From: an uncultured Lachnotalea sp.
GTDB lineage: Bacteria; Bacillota; Clostridia; Lachnospirales; Lachnospiraceae
Length of the DNA: 64,000 bases
Assembly (NCBI GenBank): GCA_947066815.1
Contig: CAMSZT010000018.1
Span: 1-64,000, forward strand
Reading direction: 5' to 3'
Numbering within the stretch: the first letter of the stretch is position 1; the number at the start of each line of letters is the position of its first letter. Below, one piece after another: positions 48,030-62,570 of the stretch. The notes beneath the pieces are model-generated. The model had not been told where the DNA came from and did not search any database. It saw only the letters and a list, made by a program, of their open reading frames with translations. A program made the position numbers and the translations under genes.

Positions 48030-48058
48030 ATTTTAGCAATCATACAGGGGGATGTCAA
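48030..48058 (-). promoter_or_regulatory. Sigma-A promoter of the hybrid kinase, overlapping the upstream stop
   Basis: The minus strand reads TTGACA, 17 bp, TAAAAT, with the -10 about 40 bp before the kinase ATG. The -35 includes the TGA stop of the upstream sugar-isomerase-like gene, so the promoter is embedded in the end of that gene. Confidence 0.8.
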
Positions 48059-49020
48059 TGAAAGAATTCGGCGCTGTCCCCCTCATGTCTTAAACAGGAG
48101 GAAAAATACTGCCCGATCCTGGCGATCAGCGCAAGTACATCTGCTTTCATCTCCTCCGGAAAGGAAGTAAGTACAGGCGCCGTCTCAAAACTCAGCGTTC
48201 CACTGAACCGTATGTCCTTTAATCCCCGCAAAAATCCGGCCCAGTCCGTCGAGGGCCGGTTCTCCCTGGTCCTTGTGAATGTAAACGGGATCTGATGCAG
48301 ATCAGAAATACCGTCATTATCATGGATATGTAAAACCTTGACCCTCGCTCCGAGAGTCGTAAGAAACTGTTCAAAATCCAGCCCTACCAGATTGGCATGT
48401 CCCGTATCAAAACAGAAGCCGAGGACCTCGGCCCGATATTTTTCATTCATCCGGTCGATCCGGCCTGCCGCCTTTTTCGCATCACAGCAAGGCCCCTCTG
48501 TGAGACGGCCTCCGGTCCCGTCATAAAGGTTTTCAATACACAGGGTAATCCCCATCTCCTTCGCCTCAGGCGCCAGAAAATCCAAAAATCCCTCCGTCTG
48601 TTTCCATTCCTGCTCCTCGTTTCCCAGGAAATAAGCCAGCTTGAGCCCGTGCACTACAAGATACGGACAGCCAAAAAAAGCACAGACCTCCAGACTCTTT
48701 TTGGCTACCGTCTTTCGGAGATACTCATTGAGCTCCGGACTTCCCTTCGGCACATAGACCGGATATGGCATGTGCATCTGGTTCACTGTGATCCCTGCTG
48801 CTGCCGCCGCGTATTTATGAGGAGTGAAGAAGGCCTCCAGCTCCGAAATGCTCCTGTCAAAAAAAGTATTGATCTTTCCCTGATAGACCGCCTCATTTTG
48901 AAGATACCCGTTCAGGCTGAAATCCGCACAGGAAAAGCCTGTGCGCGCAAGCAGCGCAAAGCCCTCCTCCGGATGGCTGTCAGTCACTGCGTTTTTTGTC
49001 TGGACTCCGATCTGCAACAT
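48055..49020 (-). CDS. Sugar-phosphate isomerase/epimerase-like TIM-barrel protein
   Basis: The 321-residue protein is of the xylose-isomerase-like/AP endonuclease 2 TIM-barrel type. Metal ligands are in place: Glu in ITLCIENLYDG, Asp/His in FCFDTGHANLVG, His/Asp in VLHIHDNDG and Glu in GTLSFETA. The family isomerises or epimerises sugars or polyols. ATG 49020 (MLQIGVQTKNAV) has AGGAGG; the track start lies 18 codons upstream in the preceding gene, with which it overlaps by 41 bp. It is the last gene of the glycan operon and a paralogue of the TIM barrel just upstream. Substrate unknown; a sugar or polyol for the polymer is likely. Confidence 0.8.
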   Translation of the reverse strand: MLQIGVQTKNAVTDSHPEEGFALLARTGFSCADFSLNGYLQNEAVYQGKINTFFDRSISELEAFFTPHKYAAAAAGITVNQMHMPYPVYVPKGSPELNEYLRKTVAKKSLEVCAFFGCPYLVVHGLKLAYFLGNEEQEWKQTEGFLDFLAPEAKEMGITLCIENLYDGTGGRLTEGPCCDAKKAAGRIDRMNEKYRAEVLGFCFDTGHANLVGLDFEQFLTTLGARVKVLHIHDNDGISDLHQIPFTFTRTRENRPSTDWAGFLRGLKDIRFSGTLSFETAPVLTSFPEEMKADVLALIARIGQYFSSCLRHEGDSAEFFH

Positions 49021-50266
49021 CTTTCCTCCTGTTTTCCAGCCGGTCAAAATAAAACGACGGCATGTATTCGTCATTAAAAAACGCGATCCGGTTGCGGATC
49101 CCCATATCCTTCAGCTGCCTCTCGATCTCCCGATAATAGATATTGCAGATGAAGATCACGCAGCTCTCCGGCAGATCCCGGAGGCTTTCCGGAGTTTTCA
49201 CCGTGAGTCCGCAAAACTCCGTTCCCCAAAGTCCGGGATCATTGTCACAGGTAAAGAGGGGCGGATACTGATTCCCATAGCACTTCATATAATTGCGGCA
49301 CATATTCCCCGCGCCGAAAAGGACGATGGAAGAGCTGTCCCTTAACAGTTTCTCGATCTCGACCTGCCACCGGAAAAATCCTGCCGTCTCTCTGGCCAGC
49401 TTAAGGAGCGGCGGCCGCAGAAGGGGCGAAAAGGCAGACGCCGTATCTGCAAGATCCAGGATCAACTGACCGTCAAAACCGATTTCCCGCAGGCCTCGGA
49501 TCAGTCCCAGCCAGTCGGTCTGCGGCTTCCCGCGGGACACACAGGTAAAGGGAAGAGCCGACATTTCTTTCTGTCCGTCCCCGTCCCGCAGAATGACCGC
49601 CTTTATGCGGCTTCCAAGCGCACCCGCAAAATCCTGCATATTCTGCCCGCACAGGCTGCAGGTCCCCACGTCCATGCAGAAACCGAACCGCTCTTCCCCG
49701 GCCTCTACATTGAGCCGGTCGACCCAGGAGGCGGCCTCTCCGGGATCTGAACAGATCCCGCGGATAAGGTGCCCGTCATGGTCACGGCACAGGTTTTCCA
49801 GAAGGATCGTCACCTGGTTTTCCCTGGCCGCCGGAAGCAGAGCCAGATAAAACTCCCGGTTTGCCTCCCACACCTCCCCCCGGGGCAGGCCGGAAAAAAG
49901 AGGCTTTACGATAAGCGTTTCACAGCCGGCTTCACCGCAGAGACAGAGACTTTCCTCCGCCAGGGAAAACAGCAGGCCGCAAGAATCTCTGCGCTTTGTA
50001 TCCGGCAGCAGCCAGGGGGCGCGGGCAGCCGGAGTACAAAGGCCGGCCCCATGGTATTTTGACAAATGGGCGGCAACGGCGGCATATTTTTCAGAAAAAC
50101 CCGGCAAAGAGAGCGTCCCGCTCTCCATGGTCTCCAAAGCCCACGGGGAGCAAAAGGAGGCCAGATCCAGCAGGATATTTTCAAATCCTGCCTTTTTTAG
50201 GTCCTGGATCCCCTGGCCCGGATGGTCGATCCCCACGATCCCCGACGGTGCACAAATGATATCCAC
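48980..50266 (-). CDS. Divergent TIM-barrel protein fused to a Rossmann-like module
   Basis: The 428-residue protein pairs a TIM barrel (about 1-290) with a C-terminal Rossmann-like module (310-400: SIVLFGAGNMCRNY, then FTCDNDPGLWG). It is a tandem paralogue of the next gene (LGLIRGLREIGFDGQLIL against WAGFLRGLKDIRFSGTLS). The metal ligands have changed: FDTGHAN reads CMDVGTCS, LHIHDND reads VILRDGDG, and the last Glu site reads LILDLAD. So it is probably not a normal isomerase. It overlaps the next gene by 41 bp and likely works with it. The ATG follows CAGGAGG. Confidence 0.72.
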   Translation of the reverse strand: MDIICAPSGIVGIDHPGQGIQDLKKAGFENILLDLASFCSPWALETMESGTLSLPGFSEKYAAVAAHLSKYHGAGLCTPAARAPWLLPDTKRRDSCGLLFSLAEESLCLCGEAGCETLIVKPLFSGLPRGEVWEANREFYLALLPAARENQVTILLENLCRDHDGHLIRGICSDPGEAASWVDRLNVEAGEERFGFCMDVGTCSLCGQNMQDFAGALGSRIKAVILRDGDGQKEMSALPFTCVSRGKPQTDWLGLIRGLREIGFDGQLILDLADTASAFSPLLRPPLLKLARETAGFFRWQVEIEKLLRDSSSIVLFGAGNMCRNYMKCYGNQYPPLFTCDNDPGLWGTEFCGLTVKTPESLRDLPESCVIFICNIYYREIERQLKDMGIRNRIAFFNDEYMPSFYFDRLENRRKDVADRSPDKKRSD

Positions 50267-50308: not shown

Positions 50309-51484
50309 TTACACAACGGCCGGTTCCCGCCACAAAATACATTCTTCTGCGATCCCCCGCTCTATCAGTTCTTTTTTGATCTCTTCCGCAACCGATCTCT
50401 TCTTTACCGCGATGACAATATGATCATATTCACATTCCGCCAGCGTTTCAGGCGCCGATACGGGAAAATTATGTTCCGCGCACTGCTCCCAGTTTTTGTC
50501 CACCCATGCGGCTATCTGCAACAGGTTCTGCCGGTGGATCTGTCTGTAGTAGCGCACGCCGATCGTTCCCGCGCCGTACAGAGCGATCCGGCTCCCCGGC
50601 TCCAGCTCCGAAAAAGGAAAGACATAACCCGTGATCTGGGCGTCGGCCGAGAACCCCATAAAGGAAGGGATAAAATACATGCGGGAAACCAGGAACAGCT
50701 CCAGTTGATATTTCAGGCTTTCTTCTTCGGGATGTCCCTCAAAGGCCCTTCCTAACGACAGATACAGTTTGTTCAGATCGCTCATGAAGTTTTGATTCAC
50801 GGTCTGTATGATCGAAGCGGGATTCTGCCGGTAGTAATAATAGCTCCTGTGAGTAACCCGGATCCCCCCCGCTTTTAAAATGTAGCGGAACAGAAGATCC
50901 CTGTCTTCGGAATATACGATAGAGGGATCAATGTCTTCGATCACGTCCCGGACAATGTCCGTCCGGTACAATTTCCCGCATAAATATGGCTGCACTCCCG
51001 CCACGAAACGGTTCTCATAAGAGATCATATTTTCAATAAAATATTTTTTCTCCGTTTCTGTACTGTAAATATTTTCCTGAAACGCGTCCGTCCAGATCAC
51101 ATATCCCCCGGAGCCGGTGTCGCGCCGGTACCCGGACGTCAGAAGATCGCACTTTCCTATATTTTCCACAAAAAAGGCAGCCATCCCGGGATCGACCGTA
51201 TCGTCCGCATCTACAAAACAGAGATATTCTCCCTCTGCGGTCCGGACCCCGTTCCTCCTTGCCCCTGCCGCTCCCATATTCTCCTGATGGAGCACCCGGA
51301 CCCTGGGATCCTTTTGCGCAAAGGCGTCGCACCTCTCTGCAGAACCATCCGTAGATCCGTCGTCGACCAGGATGATATCCAGGTTTTCATAGCTCTGGCC
51401 CGCAATGCTTCCCAGGCATTCCTTGAAATAGCCCCCCGCATTATATACGGGGACAATGACAGAAACAAGCGGCTTATCCTTCAT
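50309..51484 (-). CDS. GT2 glycosyltransferase with C-terminal Rossmann-like module
   Basis: The 391-residue protein has a GT-A family 2 domain (about 4-225): LVSVIVPVYNAGGYF, ILVDDGSTDGSAE, the DxD-like FVDADDTVD and a late YSEDRDLLF. The C-terminal module (298-382) reads SRIALYGAGTIGVRYY, then AAWVDKN. It should transfer one sugar from a nucleotide sugar to the growing glycan. ATG 51484 has GAGGAAGGTG nearby; it overlaps the upstream gene by 11 bp, so they are coupled. The donor sugar cannot be told from sequence. Confidence 0.82.
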   Translation of the reverse strand: MKDKPLVSVIVPVYNAGGYFKECLGSIAGQSYENLDIILVDDGSTDGSAERCDAFAQKDPRVRVLHQENMGAAGARRNGVRTAEGEYLCFVDADDTVDPGMAAFFVENIGKCDLLTSGYRRDTGSGGYVIWTDAFQENIYSTETEKKYFIENMISYENRFVAGVQPYLCGKLYRTDIVRDVIEDIDPSIVYSEDRDLLFRYILKAGGIRVTHRSYYYYRQNPASIIQTVNQNFMSDLNKLYLSLGRAFEGHPEEESLKYQLELFLVSRMYFIPSFMGFSADAQITGYVFPFSELEPGSRIALYGAGTIGVRYYRQIHRQNLLQIAAWVDKNWEQCAEHNFPVSAPETLAECEYDHIVIAVKKRSVAEEIKKELIERGIAEECILWREPAVV

Positions 51485-53750
51485 CCGTCGCACCTTCCTC
51501 CTTTAGAAGCTGTCTCAGTTTAGTCGAACTGACCCGTTCCGTATAAGGGAAAAACACCAGCTCCGCGCCCTGCTTCTCCAGATATTCCTTATCGGCCATC
51601 CAGCCCGGATGACCCGTATGGTCGTCCCCGGTAAACTGGCAGTCAAACCGGAATAATTTATAAGCGTCCCGGATCCCGTCGCAGGAAACCGGCAGTTCCT
51701 CCGCCCGGTCCACATACCGGCATGCGCGCACGATCTCCAGGCGGTCCTTGCAGGGGATCACCGGGTATTTCCCCTTTTTCCGGTAAACGCCCTCATCCGA
51801 TACCAGTCCCACGATCAGACGGCCGCACTGCTCCTTCGCCTTCCGAAGCAGGTTCAGATGCCCGGCATGGAACATATCAAACACCCCGGCCACATATCCG
51901 ACCGGATACTTCTTAGGGGGCGCCTCCCCTTTGTCCGCGTTTTCCGAACTCTCTGCTTTTGCGGGGACGGTCCGCGGGTATGCTTTGGAGGGATCAAAAA
52001 TAGAGTAGTTGTGCAATCCCAGATCCTCTAACTGCTTCATGACTGACAGATAATTCTTGATGCAGATAAAGATCTTGACGTCTCCCGGCTCCAGCTCCTT
52101 CAGGAGTTCAGGCGGCCGGATCTCGATCCCCTCCAGAGTCTTCCCCCACCGGGACTCGTTGTTGTCAATGACCGCCCAGACCGGATGATCCCTTCCGTAC
52201 ATGGCAAGAAACCGTCCGGCAAAGGTTCCGGAGCCAAAAAGCACCAGCTTCCTGGCCTCCGTCCCTTTAAAAATGTCACCGAAAAGCCTCTGATATTCCG
52301 CCTCTGAATAATTCATCCGCTGACGGTTCGCATTTACGATCTCCGGGTCGCGACGGCATCTCTCATAATAAACCTGAAGCTCTCTTCTCTTTAAAAGGTT
52401 TCCTAAAAACTCCCATTCCATCCGCTGCCAGCGTTCCAGGTGTTTCGTCAGGCCGTACCGCTCATACAGCTCCGTCACCGGAAGCAGCCTGCAGGCGGCC
52501 CCGTTTCCCAGATAGAAACTGCCGATCATGCGAAGAAAAAGGACGTTGGCCGGATAATGCTCCCTGCAGAACTCCTGGTCGTAAAATACAAACTCCCCAT
52601 CCACAAAAAAACTGTTTAACGGCACCAGATCCAGATATCCCTTTCGCAGGATCGCCCCTTCCCCGTCCCCGGTATCCGGCTTTTCAATCTCGGAGGATGC
52701 AAGGATCAGATCCCGGAAATGATCCATGGCCGCAAGAAATTCCTCTTTGTCTCCCTGCAGCAGACGTTTCAGATAAAGCTGGCCGGATTCCGCCTCCACA
52801 TAAGGCATCTGATATACGCCGTTTTCGATCCTTCCCTCCACCACCCGAAGGCCGCGCGCCTTCAGTTCCTTTCCGTGGGCCTCCAGCGCCTCCAGACGTT
52901 TTTCCCCTTCCGGATAAACCGCCCGTTTCTCCACGATCCCCGACTTATGTATAATGGTCAGGAGCGCATCCTCCTTCCCCCGTTCCGTTGAGCCGGTCAC
53001 ATGGCAGACATCCGACAGCCCTCCCCCCAGGGAGCATTCGATCAGCCAGGCGTTTGCCATCTCATGGAACATACCGTTTCGGATCAGGCTGTCATAAAGG
53101 GGCTCTTCCTCCAAAAACACCGTTTCCGGGTGATTGTAGGTCGGAAACACCCGGTTGGCCAGATCTTCATTGGGCAGATAATCCTCCGCATAGAGAAAGG
53201 CCGGATTTTTCAGATCCGAGAGAACAGAAAAAAAACGGAACCGTTCGATCCCTGCTCCCCTGAGCAGGCTCTTTAACGCCTCTTTATCGTAGGTTTTTCC
53301 CAAAAAAGGATCTGCCTTGCTGACATACGCCCGTTTATAATCCTCGATACTGTCCATGCTCCGGCCCGTATAGGGATCCCGGTCCCCGCAGAAATAACGC
53401 AGCCCCAGACGGTTGTTCATGCCGAGAAGCATCCGCCCGTCCGGTTTCAGCAGCGCTTTCCATTCCGCAAGCACCTTTTGCGGCTGTGTGCTCTTTTCCA
53501 GATCTGCGACAGAGACCAGATAGTCGAAAACGCCCCTGTTCTCTTCCTGCCAGTCTGCCCCGCAGCTCTCCTGCCATGTGAGACAGACCACCGTGCCGGC
53601 AGAGGCAGACAGAAGCTCCGCCAGGGCGTCCTCTTCCTTTCCTATATATAAGATCCTGCTGCCGGCCGCAAACTCATACCAGCGGAGCAGGCTCTTTTGG
53701 ATCTCCCGAATCCTTTCATCCAGGCTCATGTCCTCTTTTGATGTCTGCAT
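51474..53750 (-). CDS. Four-domain fusion: methyltransferase, kinase-like, Rossmann-like module, cytidylyltransferase
   Basis: The 758-residue protein has four parts. Residues 20-190: a SAM-methyltransferase-like domain with LKPDGRMLLGMNNRLGLRYF and a degenerate cofactor loop (LYIGKEEDALAEL). Residues 230-440: a kinase-like domain with GYLDLVPLNSFFVDGEFVFYDQEF, which resembles the catalytic and metal sites of WbdD-type kinases that cap O-antigens. Residues 500-590: the cluster module (KLVLFGSGTFAGRF, AVIDNNESRWG). Residues 614-745: a TagD-type glycerol-3-phosphate cytidylyltransferase with GVFDMFHAGHLNLLRKAK (HxGH 628-631) and SSTKLR. It may make CDP-glycerol and modify the chain end. Each part is inferred by family. 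Confidence 0.72.
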   Translation of the reverse strand: MQTSKEDMSLDERIREIQKSLLRWYEFAAGSRILYIGKEEDALAELLSASAGTVVCLTWQESCGADWQEENRGVFDYLVSVADLEKSTQPQKVLAEWKALLKPDGRMLLGMNNRLGLRYFCGDRDPYTGRSMDSIEDYKRAYVSKADPFLGKTYDKEALKSLLRGAGIERFRFFSVLSDLKNPAFLYAEDYLPNEDLANRVFPTYNHPETVFLEEEPLYDSLIRNGMFHEMANAWLIECSLGGGLSDVCHVTGSTERGKEDALLTIIHKSGIVEKRAVYPEGEKRLEALEAHGKELKARGLRVVEGRIENGVYQMPYVEAESGQLYLKRLLQGDKEEFLAAMDHFRDLILASSEIEKPDTGDGEGAILRKGYLDLVPLNSFFVDGEFVFYDQEFCREHYPANVLFLRMIGSFYLGNGAACRLLPVTELYERYGLTKHLERWQRMEWEFLGNLLKRRELQVYYERCRRDPEIVNANRQRMNYSEAEYQRLFGDIFKGTEARKLVLFGSGTFAGRFLAMYGRDHPVWAVIDNNESRWGKTLEGIEIRPPELLKELEPGDVKIFICIKNYLSVMKQLEDLGLHNYSIFDPSKAYPRTVPAKAESSENADKGEAPPKKYPVGYVAGVFDMFHAGHLNLLRKAKEQCGRLIVGLVSDEGVYRKKGKYPVIPCKDRLEIVRACRYVDRAEELPVSCDGIRDAYKLFRFDCQFTGDDHTGHPGWMADKEYLEKQGAELVFFPYTERVSSTKLRQLLKEEGATDEG

Positions 53751-53769: not shown

Positions 53770-55143
53770 TCACATAAGCGTCCGGACTGCCTCGTCTGTC
53801 CTGAAAATATTTTGAAATCCCTGCTCCTTCAAGGTTACATAAAGCTCATACTGGCTCCATTCCGTTACGGCAATGACCACCGCACAGCAGTCCGCAGCCG
53901 GTTTTGCTTCCCGCACCTCCATGACAGGAAGATCCATGCACACAGTCTTCCCTTCGGCAAGCCTGGTCACAAGAAACGCATCCACACGCCCGCCCTGTTC
54001 CCGGATCGCTTTTGCCAGGCGCTTCCCCACCTGCCCTGCTCCGTAAATGAACACCTTCGGATATTGTTTCAGCTGCTCGAAAAAAGCATTTGCATATATT
54101 GGGATATTTTCAAACCGGCAGACCGTAAGCCTTGCATCCGGGAGCGGCCTGGCCGTTCTTCCAAAAAAACCGTCCCGGTCCGCCAAGATCTCCTGAAGCT
54201 TCCCCCACACGGCAGGCAGGAACGCCTCTTCTGCGACCCATCCCCGCTTCCGGTCCCCATGAAAAGAACTTTCCAGCCTTACCAGCAGCGCATACTGATA
54301 CCAGGCTCCCACCCTGTGATAATGGTCAAGATAGTCCCGGTATCTGGCTGCCGTAAAATACCGGCGAAGTACGGGAGAATCCGTTAAAATATGCCCCAGC
54401 TTCTCTTCCACCCACTGATATTCCTCAAACACACAGAATAATTTCGACGGGTTGTTCATGGAAGAGGCCGGATTATCCCTCCGGTAATGCAGCAGGGCAT
54501 CCTCGATCAGACACACCCGGTCCGCCTGAAGCCACACCTGCAGGGCAAAAGAAATGTCCTGATAAGAGGCGCCCGGCGTCTCGTGAAAACGGATGTCATG
54601 CTCCAGCAGAAAGGACCGCTTATAGAGGCAGGACCAGATAGTGTCGGCAAGATCCAAAAGCTTCGGAAAAGAACGGCCGTTTAACAGCCGGCCCTTCGGA
54701 TAGCCGTCCAGCCTCTCCGAACGCACGCTCTCTCCGTCCCGGTAATTATAAAAGGTCCCCTTTACCACGTCCGCTTCCTGCACCCCCGCCGTATCATAAA
54801 GCTTCTGCAGCATATCCGGCTCCGCAAAATCATCGCTCTCCAGAATGGCGACATACTTCCCTTTCGCATGCTCCAGCGCAACATTCATACTGTTTCCGTA
54901 TCCTGTATTTTTTTTGTGGATGACCCGGATCCTGGGATCCGATGCCCCATAGGCGTCCAGGATGGCTCCGCTCCGGTCCTGGGAGCCGTCGTCCACACAG
55001 ATCAGTTCAAAATTTTCAAAGGTCTGGGCAAGCAGGCTGTCCAGGCACTGCCCCAGATACCGTTCGACATTGTAAACCGGGACCAGCACGGAGATTTCCG
55101 GCTGACCTGCATCCTTTTGCACCCTTTTATGCTCTCTTTCCAT
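53770..55143 (-). CDS. GT2 glycosyltransferase with C-terminal Rossmann-like module
   Basis: The 457-residue protein has a GT2 domain in its first half: EISVLVPVYNVERYLGQC, LICVDDGSQDRSG and the DxD-like ILESDDFAEPD. A helical middle (about 235-350) is followed by the module at about 361-450 (KVFIYGAGQVGKRL, DAFLVTR in place of VDN). ATG 55143 (MEREHKRVQKDAGQ) has AGAGGA upstream; the track start lies 14 codons earlier. It follows the CDP-glycerol transferase gene by about 75 bp and precedes the four-domain gene by 19 bp. The module is the most divergent copy. Confidence 0.82.
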   Translation of the reverse strand: MEREHKRVQKDAGQPEISVLVPVYNVERYLGQCLDSLLAQTFENFELICVDDGSQDRSGAILDAYGASDPRIRVIHKKNTGYGNSMNVALEHAKGKYVAILESDDFAEPDMLQKLYDTAGVQEADVVKGTFYNYRDGESVRSERLDGYPKGRLLNGRSFPKLLDLADTIWSCLYKRSFLLEHDIRFHETPGASYQDISFALQVWLQADRVCLIEDALLHYRRDNPASSMNNPSKLFCVFEEYQWVEEKLGHILTDSPVLRRYFTAARYRDYLDHYHRVGAWYQYALLVRLESSFHGDRKRGWVAEEAFLPAVWGKLQEILADRDGFFGRTARPLPDARLTVCRFENIPIYANAFFEQLKQYPKVFIYGAGQVGKRLAKAIREQGGRVDAFLVTRLAEGKTVCMDLPVMEVREAKPAADCCAVVIAVTEWSQYELYVTLKEQGFQNIFRTDEAVRTLM

Positions 55144-55217
55144 CTGCAATGATCCTCTTTCCTGACTGTATGAATACGGAAACAAACCGCTTCCCCTTTG
55201 CTCTGTAACATCTTCAC

Positions 55218-56828
55218 CTACACAGAAAAAACCGTATCAACGATAAACTGTGCAGCCCGTTCACCGGCATGGCCGTCTTCATGCACCCCATAGCGTTCCA
55301 AAAATGCGGTCACCTTTTCCTCATACTCCTCCCCATGAAATCCCAGGATATTCCGTTCCAGTTCTTCATTGGATTCCGCAGTCGGAAACGGCAGATCGTG
55401 ATATCCGATCAGCAGGTCATATTCATTTAACAGATAATCTTCCAGATCCGTAGCAAACAGAAACACCGGTTTTTTCACAAAAGAAGCCTCAAACATAATA
55501 CTGGAAAAATCCGAGATCAGGATATCGGAGGCCGATACCAGCTCCTGACTGTCTCCGTACAGGCTCACATCAATGACAAAATCCGGTTTTTCCATCTCCT
55601 GCAGCGCAGACGCCACGGAAGGATGCAGCCGGACCAGAATATACCATTCGCCGCCAAACCGCGCCTCCAGTGCCCCTTTGACCCGTTCAAAGTCCAATCC
55701 GATATTGCGGGATTCCGCAGCCGTCTTCCCTTTTGTTTTACTGAACCGGTAAGTGGGCGCATAAATAAGCGCTCTGCGGTCCTTGTCCAGATGATAATAT
55801 CCAAAAACCTTATCCCGGTTCTCCGCCTCACGGAACAATCCGTCCGAACGCGGCGAGCCATACTGCAGCACCTCCCCCTCAAAACCAAAGCCACGGCGGC
55901 AGGATTCCGTATCAAAATCACTGCCTGTAATAATGTGGTCAATTAGTTTCTGCTCTCTTTTCCATACATTGATCTTTTCCGGGACGCCCTGGAACGTCGA
56001 CGCATCCAGATAAAATCTCTTTAATGTGATACTGGCCCAATGCTTGGTCTGGATGTAGATCTGTCCCGGACGCTTGATGATATAGGATGGAACCGGCAGA
56101 TCCAGTATCCACATTGCGGATGTCTCCATTTCATAGATAAAACGTTTCCAGTTTCCCGCATATATTTTTCTGACTCCGTCAGGAACCTCCGCCCGCATGT
56201 CGTTTACTGCCCAGACAAGGTCCAGATCTTTTCCTGCCTTCAACAGGGCTTCCGTAATATATTTGCCATGATCTGTGTAATCCCCATAAGCCTTAAAAAA
56301 AATCCTCTTTCGATTTATTTTCTCCTGCCGGCAGCACATTCCCGCAAACTGTATTTTCTTCTCCTCGCCGCTTTCCTCGATCCCTGTCCTTTTATCTGAT
56401 GCTTCCTGTTCATTGGCCTCCATGATCACCAATACAAAACAATGCTTCATCCCAAGCTGCCCAAGCTGCCCTATGATCGTTCCATAATGATTCGTACTGG
56501 TAACAAGAACTACTACTTCCTCCGGATCATAAACGTCAAACAGCGATATTGCGGAAATTCTCGTTTTCCCAGACTTCAGCCCAAAAGCTTCCGGAATAAA
56601 CTCCTCTATCCAAAATCCCTGTTTTCCACTGTCATTATCAACCACTCCCGCAAGGTTTCCTCGGTCTCCATATCGCTCAAAATAACCTCCCGAGCCTGCT
56701 CCCGCTCCAAACAAAATCAGCTTTTTTTCACTGGCAATCGTTTCAAAATCCGCCCAGGTCTGGCCGTCCAAAGCTTTATTGCCCGAAATATGCTTTCCGT
56801 TTTTTATCGCGCGGTCTATGATTTCCAT
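55218..56828 (-). CDS. CDP-glycerol glycerophosphotransferase with N-terminal Rossmann-like module
   Basis: The 536-residue protein has the module at 35-140 (KLILFGAGAGSGGYF, AGVVDNDSGKQG) and a CDP-glycerol:glycerophosphate glycerophosphotransferase domain (about 175-530) like TagB/TagF. Signatures: IYAPTYRFSKTK, LVRLHPSVAS, and the C-terminal ASDILISDFSSIMFEASFVKKP. TagF-type enzymes polymerise glycerol phosphate from CDP-glycerol; TagB adds the first unit. ATG 56828 has GGGAG six nt upstream. The CDP-glycerol could come from the cytidylyltransferase domain of the four-domain protein. Confidence 0.85.
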   Translation of the reverse strand: MEIIDRAIKNGKHISGNKALDGQTWADFETIASEKKLILFGAGAGSGGYFERYGDRGNLAGVVDNDSGKQGFWIEEFIPEAFGLKSGKTRISAISLFDVYDPEEVVVLVTSTNHYGTIIGQLGQLGMKHCFVLVIMEANEQEASDKRTGIEESGEEKKIQFAGMCCRQEKINRKRIFFKAYGDYTDHGKYITEALLKAGKDLDLVWAVNDMRAEVPDGVRKIYAGNWKRFIYEMETSAMWILDLPVPSYIIKRPGQIYIQTKHWASITLKRFYLDASTFQGVPEKINVWKREQKLIDHIITGSDFDTESCRRGFGFEGEVLQYGSPRSDGLFREAENRDKVFGYYHLDKDRRALIYAPTYRFSKTKGKTAAESRNIGLDFERVKGALEARFGGEWYILVRLHPSVASALQEMEKPDFVIDVSLYGDSQELVSASDILISDFSSIMFEASFVKKPVFLFATDLEDYLLNEYDLLIGYHDLPFPTAESNEELERNILGFHGEEYEEKVTAFLERYGVHEDGHAGERAAQFIVDTVFSV

Positions 56829-56844
56829 CAAACGCTCCCTTCCT

Positions 56845-60908: not shown

Positions 60909-62570
60909 CTAACCCCTTTCTCTGAACGATTCAAAATCCCCGATTTTTTCCTTTTGAAGTTCTTCCATGAAACAGATCATCTGCCCTGTTTTCTCCAAAG
61001 CGGACATATTTTCTATTTTTGAAAAAACAGTCCCTCTTTTACATTCTATGAAAAGCAATTTTTTTCTGCCGATATATTTATTTAAAACATCTGTAAGTTC
61101 CGGCTCCGCTTTTTCTTTCATCAGCTCTTCCACGATCTGCTTCAGCTCATGATCAAAAACATATTTTCCCATCAGACTATAGTTTCCTGCTTTATAATCT
61201 CCATATGCTTCCATCGGCACCTCTTTATTCTCACTCAGCCGTATACTTTCGGTAGATTCCGAAAAAAAAGACTTTGTTCCCCATACATACGCACCGTCAA
61301 AAGTACATATTTTTTCTGACAATTCCTTTGCGATCCCTATACCATGTATGACATAATCTGCATACAGTAAAACCATTCTTGATGCTGCCAAATATCCGGG
61401 ATTATCCGATATATGGTCCACCACACCATAAGTATCCGATACCAGATAGCAAATCCTCATCCCAAAGGCTTCCCCATGGCCTATCACTTTTTGATACGCT
61501 TCTTTCACCGCCTCAGTCACAACAATATAAACCTGTTCGATATGCAATAATTTTAAGGTGTTCAAAGCATAAAACATTAACGGTTTATTTCCTGCCAGAA
61601 GCATTTTCCCCTTTTCTTTTTCCAGAAAGCTTCCTACGATCATTCCTGTTGCCCTGTTATATCCATGGCATAAAAAATGATATTCTCTTTCTTCCCTTCG
61701 CATTAAGGATGCCAGGACACCGCCCCCGCATGCCGAATAAATACACATCGGAGCTTTCGATATCGCATAAAGTGAATACAGATATTTTAAATCCCGCTCA
61801 TACCCGTTTTCTTTTTTATAAACCGCATTCAGTGTATCATAACCTAAATTTTTATATCTCTTAGCCTCCACAGAAACAACCCTGTCAGGATATCTCGCCT
61901 CAAACTCTGTCAGGATACCCTGATCTTCTGTAGCAAGAAAAATTTTATATCCCGGCATTCGTTTCCGCAGACTGTCTATACACGCAAAAATTTCATCCGC
62001 AGGAATCGGTTTTAAATGCCCTGCCGGTTTTAATTCCCTGTAATCTGTCCCTCTTGCCAAAATACCAATTATTTTGTCTTCCATCTCAAAATGCTGACTG
62101 AGACAATATTCGAAATATCCTTTGATCTCCTTTTTTATCCGGATATATTGTTGAAAACATTGCCGCCACTTTAGTACTTCCTGATCATAAAAATTTATAA
62201 ATCTTTCTGCATCCAGGCTTTGCTTATAATCAAACTTTCCAACGTCATCAATCACAAAGATCTCACCGCTGGCATAAGCCTCCTCTACACAGACATTAAA
62301 AGGCTGCTCAAAAAAATATTCCCATACATTCTCCTTACCAACCTTTTGTGCATCGTATTGAGGAAGCTTACAATCCCTCCAATCCACCACAGGAATAAAT
62401 TCATTCTCCACTCCAAACCGTATCCCCATAAGTGTATATAATATATACCATCCCAAACCTGCTGTGGAAATCAAATGATTTCCCATCTTTAAGACCAGAT
62501 ATTTTTTATCCGTCTCCACCCTTGCACACAGTGTATTGTTTCTCCAATTTGTATAATCTCTATGATCCAT
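60909..62570 (-). CDS. Fucosyltransferase-like GT with degenerate sugar-nucleotidyltransferase domain
   Basis: The 553-residue protein lacks the cluster module. Residues 20-320 look like a GT-B fucosyltransferase of the NodZ/GT23 or O-fucosyltransferase type: NVWEYFFEQPF, ILARGTDYRELKP, IPADEIFACIDSLRK and IFLATEDQGILTEF. The last third resembles RmlA-type nucleotidyltransferases (KMLLAGNKPLMFYALNTLKL, LLYADYVIHGIGI, KAGNYSLMGKYVFD), but the N-terminal GGxGTRL loop is replaced by VGSFLEKEK. It probably cannot make a nucleotide sugar. ATG 62570 reads MDHRDYTNWRNN. AT-rich; function inferred only from folds. Confidence 0.62.
   Translation of the reverse strand: MDHRDYTNWRNNTLCARVETDKKYLVLKMGNHLISTAGLGWYILYTLMGIRFGVENEFIPVVDWRDCKLPQYDAQKVGKENVWEYFFEQPFNVCVEEAYASGEIFVIDDVGKFDYKQSLDAERFINFYDQEVLKWRQCFQQYIRIKKEIKGYFEYCLSQHFEMEDKIIGILARGTDYRELKPAGHLKPIPADEIFACIDSLRKRMPGYKIFLATEDQGILTEFEARYPDRVVSVEAKRYKNLGYDTLNAVYKKENGYERDLKYLYSLYAISKAPMCIYSACGGGVLASLMRREEREYHFLCHGYNRATGMIVGSFLEKEKGKMLLAGNKPLMFYALNTLKLLHIEQVYIVVTEAVKEAYQKVIGHGEAFGMRICYLVSDTYGVVDHISDNPGYLAASRMVLLYADYVIHGIGIAKELSEKICTFDGAYVWGTKSFFSESTESIRLSENKEVPMEAYGDYKAGNYSLMGKYVFDHELKQIVEELMKEKAEPELTDVLNKYIGRKKLLFIECKRGTVFSKIENMSALEKTGQMICFMEELQKEKIGDFESFRERG

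Follow-up and report, generated by a model that had tools for sequence, protein, structure and literature searches.

O7 ORF6 of K. pneumoniae, which is encoded in a glycan cluster, begins with an N-terminal class-I methyltransferase (MTase), to which an APH-like kinase of about 220 amino acids (aa) is joined; it keeps the glycines G91 and G93 of the S-adenosylmethionine (SAM) site, and also carries a coiled coil and GT2 modules (PMC11231755). WbdD of E. coli O9a likewise presents an MTase and then a kinase in one chain, and combines active methylation with a coiled-coil ruler (PMC3482155). Both enzymes are bifunctional, as they phosphorylate the glycan end and then methylate it (PMC11231755, PMC3482155). 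The window investigated here is a stretch of 64,000 nucleotides (nt) from an uncultured Lachnotalea sp. (Lachnospiraceae), in which positions 51474-53750 of the minus strand encode a protein of 758 aa, referred to as the fusion protein, that unites an MTase-like domain, a kinase-like domain, a Rossmann-like module and a cytidylyltransferase. Its closest characterised layout is that of O7 ORF6 (PMC11231755), as compared by description. We tentatively regard the fusion protein as a Lachnospiraceae glycan-cluster enzyme, derived from the MTase-kinase type of chain terminator, that may have been remade as a kinase/cytidylyltransferase activating some cytidine diphosphate (CDP)-alcohol.

The open reading frame (ORF) begins with an ATG at 53750 and fills exactly this interval, and the plus strand over the same positions holds many stops; the purine-rich stretch GGAAAGGA lies 13 nt 5' of the ATG. 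Along the chain, and in a single frame, the motifs LKPDGRMLLGMNNRLGL (residues about 101-117), LDLVPLNSFFV...FYDQEF (373-394), FGSGTFAGRF (505-514) and FDMFHAGH (624-631) follow each other in the order that a first-pass annotation of this DNA had proposed, although its kinase motif, which is present, reads FYDQEF instead of the "FDYQE" written there, and the minus strand went unmentioned. The cytidylyltransferase is the only domain of the fusion protein above its Pfam cut-off (PF01467, 53.9 versus 21 bits, E 2.8e-14); the MTase domain reached E 0.02 at best, and the Pfam search of the fusion protein gave no match for the kinase domain. Among the NCBIfam models, TIGR00125 scored above its cut-off, and TIGR02199 (HldE domain II) and TIGR01518 (TagD) far below theirs. 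The whole-chain AlphaFold2 model, built from a 7-sequence alignment, has a mean predicted local distance difference test score (pLDDT) of 66.6 with poor inter-domain regions. Together with a separate model of the kinase region, it gives a Rossmann domain of the MTase type, a kinase of two lobes and a TagD-type fold. The ratio of nonsynonymous to synonymous substitution rates (dN/dS), calculated against orthologues with estimable dS, was 0.05-0.16 across the four domains, indicating purifying selection everywhere.

This layout is more than a chance arrangement. Relatives at E<=1e-40 were present in 25 of the 397 sampled Lachnospiraceae genomes including the window's own (24 of the 396 others, about 6%), a small number being incomplete, split or variant, and the full architecture recurs in 28 further proteins, all from Lachnospiraceae; these genome counts describe samples, and the ORF starts of orthologues were assigned mechanically. 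A misassembly or frameshift artefact was ruled out, because about 29 proteins have the full layout. The first nine orthologues are full-length with 46-89% identity, and more were added by the family survey. A survey of 391 genomes of the class showed no protein with the full layout outside Lachnospiraceae, the matches there being confined to MTase + kinase proteins (L093, L094) or cytidylyltransferase-length stretches. The clade analysed comprises 31 proteins, 29 of them with the full layout, and its members are split from MTase-kinase outgroups at 100/99 in a tree with some long branches. A PHROGs search with the fusion protein returned cytidylyltransferase matches only, and a tblastn search against plasmids partial matches only, those listed all being of cytidylyltransferase length. 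As the first-pass annotation had stated, no described protein with this domain order was found in the open-access literature searched, an absence that is weak evidence; the same literature held nothing relevant on pseudo-methyltransferases in polysaccharide clusters or on PglD-like modules fused to glycosyltransferases.

The first domain (residues ~10-236; 53043-53723) has the Rossmann fold of a class-I MTase: Foldseek matched it to SAM methyltransferases, with a probability of 1.00 to 1vlm, 3dli and others, the pLDDT of its model being mostly 76-92 over residues 20-110 and poor at 113-150 and 177-234. The cofactor site, in the part of the fusion protein that includes METHYLTRANSFERASE, is lost. 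According to the alignment, the E/DxGxGxG SAM motif is destroyed in 31 of the 31 clade members (YIGKEED, YLGEPDE, YVPDQLD and similar), YIGKEED being the version found in the window; strand 2 no longer ends in its acidic residue, and the stretch covering strands 2 and 3 is shorter. Conservation is strong, by contrast, in the loop that follows strand 5 (MNNRLGLRYFCGDRDPYTxR), and the dN/dS of the domain is 0.10-0.12. The SAM motif is intact in the unfused relatives, namely 300-aa MTases (L013-L017, L020), MTase + kinase proteins (L018, L038, L093) and an MTase-kinase-coiled-coil protein (L094), as exemplified by LEIGSGCG in L015 and LELGGGYG in L038. These residues make it very probable that the first domain is a pseudo-methyltransferase without SAM binding. 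Methyl capping by the fusion protein, which had been part of the first-pass model, is unlikely because no clade member has the motif, although the unfused relatives do.

The first two domains are homologous to canonical MTase-kinase proteins (hhalign probability 100, E 2.7e-69, 456 columns). Taken together with the SAM motif retained in L038 (a split MTase-kinase in a congener) and in L093 and L094 (both from other families), and with the 100/99 split in the tree, this homology implies that SAM binding was probably lost from a canonical MTase-kinase no later than on the branch that leads to the clade. Standalone MTase-kinase homologues of the fusion protein share the layout of O7 ORF6, L094 also having the coiled coil and ending in a heptad-like repeat. 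The fusion protein differs from O7 ORF6 in the missing SAM motif and in its C-terminal part, as residues 485-758, inspected for a coiled-coil ruler, consist of the Rossmann module and the cytidylyltransferase instead of coiled coil and GT2. The "WbdD-like capping pair" of the first-pass annotation holds for the ancestry of the two domains and fails at the SAM motif; moreover, no WbdD chain appeared in the sequence or fold searches of the PDB among the matches listed (the best 50 for the kinase fold search, the best 60 for one other). A specific relationship to WbdD is thus not supported, and the link to this active, ruler-bearing methylator (PMC3482155) is one of layout only.

The kinase-like domain (residues 238-484; 52299-53039) was modelled alone (m6db25049f187), giving a two-lobed structure with a pLDDT of 85.5 and a predicted template modelling score of 0.80. 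Foldseek related this model with a probability of about 1.00 to RioK1, Rio2, PRPK/Bud32, macrolide phosphotransferases (MphH) and APH(3')-IIIa, at modest TM-scores of about 0.3-0.5, and the modelled fold is a divergent one of the protein-kinase-like or small-molecule-kinase type. The kinase signature is complete, with the N-lobe lysine K275, the catalytic D374, N379 at +5 and the DFG-type D391, and the same arrangement of catalytic Asp, Asn five residues on and DFG-type Asp is found in WbdD (PMC3482155). Of the 31 clade members, 29 keep K275, D374-x4-N379 and D391. L063 has an Arg at the Lys position with a Lys adjacent, and L057 has a degenerate kinase and a retained cytidylyltransferase; L067, its tandem paralogue in the same genome, lacks a cytidylyltransferase but has an intact kinase (both at locus L085 of genome G427). 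This pair suggests a division of labour, as if both activities were needed but not in one chain. The degenerate kinase of L057 might also be expected if the protein were mainly a scaffold or regulator, in which pseudo-MTase, kinase and module organise a glycan-assembly complex via the shared Rossmann module and the cytidylyltransferase is the sole catalytic part. We consider this improbable, since L057 is accompanied in tandem by a protein whose kinase is intact and nearly all members keep the K/D/N/D positions at about 50% identity.

The cytidylyltransferase domain (residues 613-752; 51495-51914) carries the HxGH motif at 628-631 and a YTxxxSST motif, and the clade retains HxGH, GDD/GSD and SST-type motifs, so that both kinase and cytidylyltransferase look alive by their conserved residues. 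Foldseek placed it with glycerol 3-phosphate (G3P), choline-phosphate and ethanolamine-phosphate cytidylyltransferases, and 2b7l and 1coz were among the top fold and sequence matches, which bears out the cytidylyltransferase fold proposed in the first-pass annotation. In contrast to TagD/TarD, the domain scored only 59-60 bits with TIGR01518 against an equivalog cut-off of 165.4, has YTxxxSST instead of RTxxxSTT, and belongs to a separate clade (100/98) that groups with solo cytidylyltransferases and not with TagD or with the TagD-Gfo/Idh fusion. Its best equivalog-type match was TIGR02199, though below the cut-off. YTxxxSST rather than RTxxxSTT is also found in the N-terminal cytidylyltransferase of Fom1 (5x3d); Fom1, however, is fused to a phosphoenolpyruvate mutase and makes a CMP (cytidine monophosphate)-phosphonate, and no such mutase was found among the neighbours examined. 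Since L066, which joins MTase, kinase and cytidylyltransferase without a module, is sister to the cytidylyltransferase clade at 97/91, the kinase-cytidylyltransferase join probably preceded the acquisition of the module. In a protein at L090:10212-11693, a clade cytidylyltransferase is joined to a metallophosphatase-like domain; a split MTase-kinase gene lies nearby, and the gene of this protein is followed by a LicD gene with the module.

TagD-like matches were found in 27 of the 27 genomes searched, and every fusion-carrying genome among them except G233 has at least one other such match, which outscores the fusion protein in nearly all cases. CDP-glycerol supply, the obvious role for the cytidylyltransferase, was for this reason set aside. 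The window's own genome (G000) offers a better TagD-like candidate (115.6 bits), a cytidylyltransferase + Gfo/Idh-type protein of ~473 aa on contig C50. Almost every genome with a fusion gene also encodes a TagD-like cytidylyltransferase fused to a Gfo/Idh/MocA-type oxidoreductase (e.g. L100:1748-3166), frequently on the same contig. TagF-type genes (PF04464) are present in 26 of the 27 fusion-carrying genomes, but near the fusion gene in only a subset. Because of this distribution, and of the TagD-like proteins encoded elsewhere, G3P is a possible substrate of the cytidylyltransferase but not a favoured one, and the first-pass assignment of CDP-glycerol synthesis to the C-terminal domain could not be upheld. 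The complete model of that annotation, an active WbdD-like methyl-phosphate cap with TagD-type CDP-glycerol synthesis in one polypeptide, appears highly improbable: it agrees with the domain order and folds and with a TagF-like gene next but one upstream, but conflicts with the loss of SAM motif I, of the strand 2 acidic residue and of part of the strand 2-3 region in all 31 members, with the low TIGR01518 score, the better TagD-like protein on C50 and the position of the clade apart from TagD, and with the missing WbdD match.

The Rossmann-like module (FGSG...DNNxxxWG...IxxPExL; residues ~490-590; 51981-52283) is similar to CapD-N, PglD-N, Rex and TrkA domains. A profile built from 8 of the 9 cluster copies, leaving out the ninth in the gene at the window edge, gave 10 matches in the genome, 9 of them in this cluster (49070 to 64063) and 1 elsewhere; the module copies matched 3nkl (CapD-N, 7.7e-8) and Rex (4.1e-7), and also TrkA Rossmann domains. 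The module of the fusion protein stays below the Pfam cut-offs of PglD_N and CoA_binding, weak PglD_N matches being obtained in 2 of 10 orthologues. Nine of ten consecutive cluster proteins (48980-64130, minus strand), among them GT2, GT4, TagF-like and TIM-barrel proteins as well as the fusion protein, have this module of ~95 residues at the N- or C-terminus, and in relatives the module matches are also bunched in single contigs (e.g. G005:C10, G007:C40, G032:C54). Such sharing, and pseudoenzyme domains that come with a module both in the fusion protein and in its neighbour TIM1, would fit the scaffold or regulator explanation, whereas L066 has the cytidylyltransferase fusion without the module.

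The fusion gene is part of a tightly packed run of genes on the minus strand. It begins 20 nt past the end of an upstream GT2 glycosyltransferase gene with a C-terminal module (53770-55185), and its 3' end is overlapped by 20 nt by the start of another GT2 gene with a C-terminal module (50309-51493). Further downstream are TIM1 (48980-50266), a protein of the PF01261 fold with a C-terminal Rossmann module, and TIM2 (48055-49074), a PF01261 sugar isomerase/epimerase-like TIM barrel. TIM1 appears to be a pseudo-isomerase beside an active-looking paralogue, because it has lost most metal-ligand motifs in nearly every orthologue and TIM2 keeps them (VHG, IEN, DTGH, HIHDND, FET). TIM1 lies 3' of the fusion gene in about 22 loci, with TIM2 in most of those; in L026, L039, L084 and L090 the two are replaced by a nearby LicD-type gene carrying the module. 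The upstream TagF/TarF-like CDP-glycerol glycerophosphotransferase (55218-56831; PF04464, 205 bits), which has an N-terminal module, lies close to the fusion gene in part of the genomes only, and TagF and the glycosyltransferases vary between fusion loci. The protein encoded at 60909-62570 resembles RmlA-type nucleotidyltransferases (PF00483) in its C-terminal part; its N-terminal half looks fucosyltransferase-like by eye.

Given the observed architecture, ancestry, loss of the SAM motif and co-conservation, the activation of a CDP-alcohol would run as follows, the order of the reactions and the substrate being what we infer. The MTase-like domain, no longer SAM-binding, may serve as a structural or substrate-binding platform; the kinase, with its conserved catalytic residues, would phosphorylate a small alcohol or sugar, and the C-terminal cytidylyltransferase would turn the phosphate into a CDP-activated group, on which a TagF- or LicD-type transferase from the cluster would then draw. 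The isomerase-type barrel TIM2 and its putative pseudoenzyme paralogue TIM1 may make or deliver the kinase substrate, and the module common to most cluster proteins may mediate shared ligand sensing or assembly. The same logic of a kinase followed by a nucleotidylyltransferase is known from HldE (heptose kinase-adenylyltransferase), where the two are fused, and from LicA/LicC; the HldE kinase, however, is ribokinase-type, whereas that of the fusion protein is protein-kinase-like.

Several observations weigh against this proposal. It names its candidate substrate only as a class, a small alcohol or sugar, and those relatives of this layout that have been characterised phosphorylate the ends of glycans rather than small molecules (PMC11231755, PMC3482155). 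The L090 genome encodes the kinase apart from the cytidylyltransferase, which is fused there to the metallophosphatase-like domain; about six loci lack TIM1/TIM2; and the AlphaFold model, made from only 7 sequences, is poor at 113-150, 177-234 and 455-498. It is conceivable, if rather doubtful, that the modification at the chain end is a phosphate only: the kinase would act on the glycan terminus, as in O7 ORF6 minus the methyl step, and the CDP-alditol made by the cytidylyltransferase would go to a transferase that acts on this glycan chain as well. This amounts to the coupling of precursor supply to chain-end modification suggested in the first-pass annotation, of which phosphorylation with CDP-precursor supply is possible and the methylation part fell with the SAM motif. 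The homology of the kinase to MTase-kinase chain-terminator-like proteins speaks for it, as do the TagF- or LicD-type transferases in or near many clusters and the PF04464-like genes that often adjoin the nearest solo cytidylyltransferases (L028, L029, L030, L034). The fused protein, however, has no coiled-coil ruler, TagF is nearby in a subset only, and the co-conservation is with isomerase-type barrels, not with export or polymerase genes.

The favoured kinase/cytidylyltransferase reading extends to a more speculative scenario, which we hold with considerable reserve: a chain-terminating MTase-kinase would have been converted, in one family, to a bifunctional kinase/cytidylyltransferase for a new CDP-building block, with the dead MTase as substrate cradle, an active/pseudo isomerase pair, and the shared module as a common ligand signal or the mark of a metabolon. 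If true, a polymer-capping enzyme would have been rebuilt as a precursor-activating one through the loss of cofactor binding and the gain of a nucleotidylyltransferase, and an uncharacterised CDP-linked surface modification would be added to common gut bacteria. The shared Rossmann module, in turn, may be a mark by which the enzymes of entire glycan clusters are coordinated.

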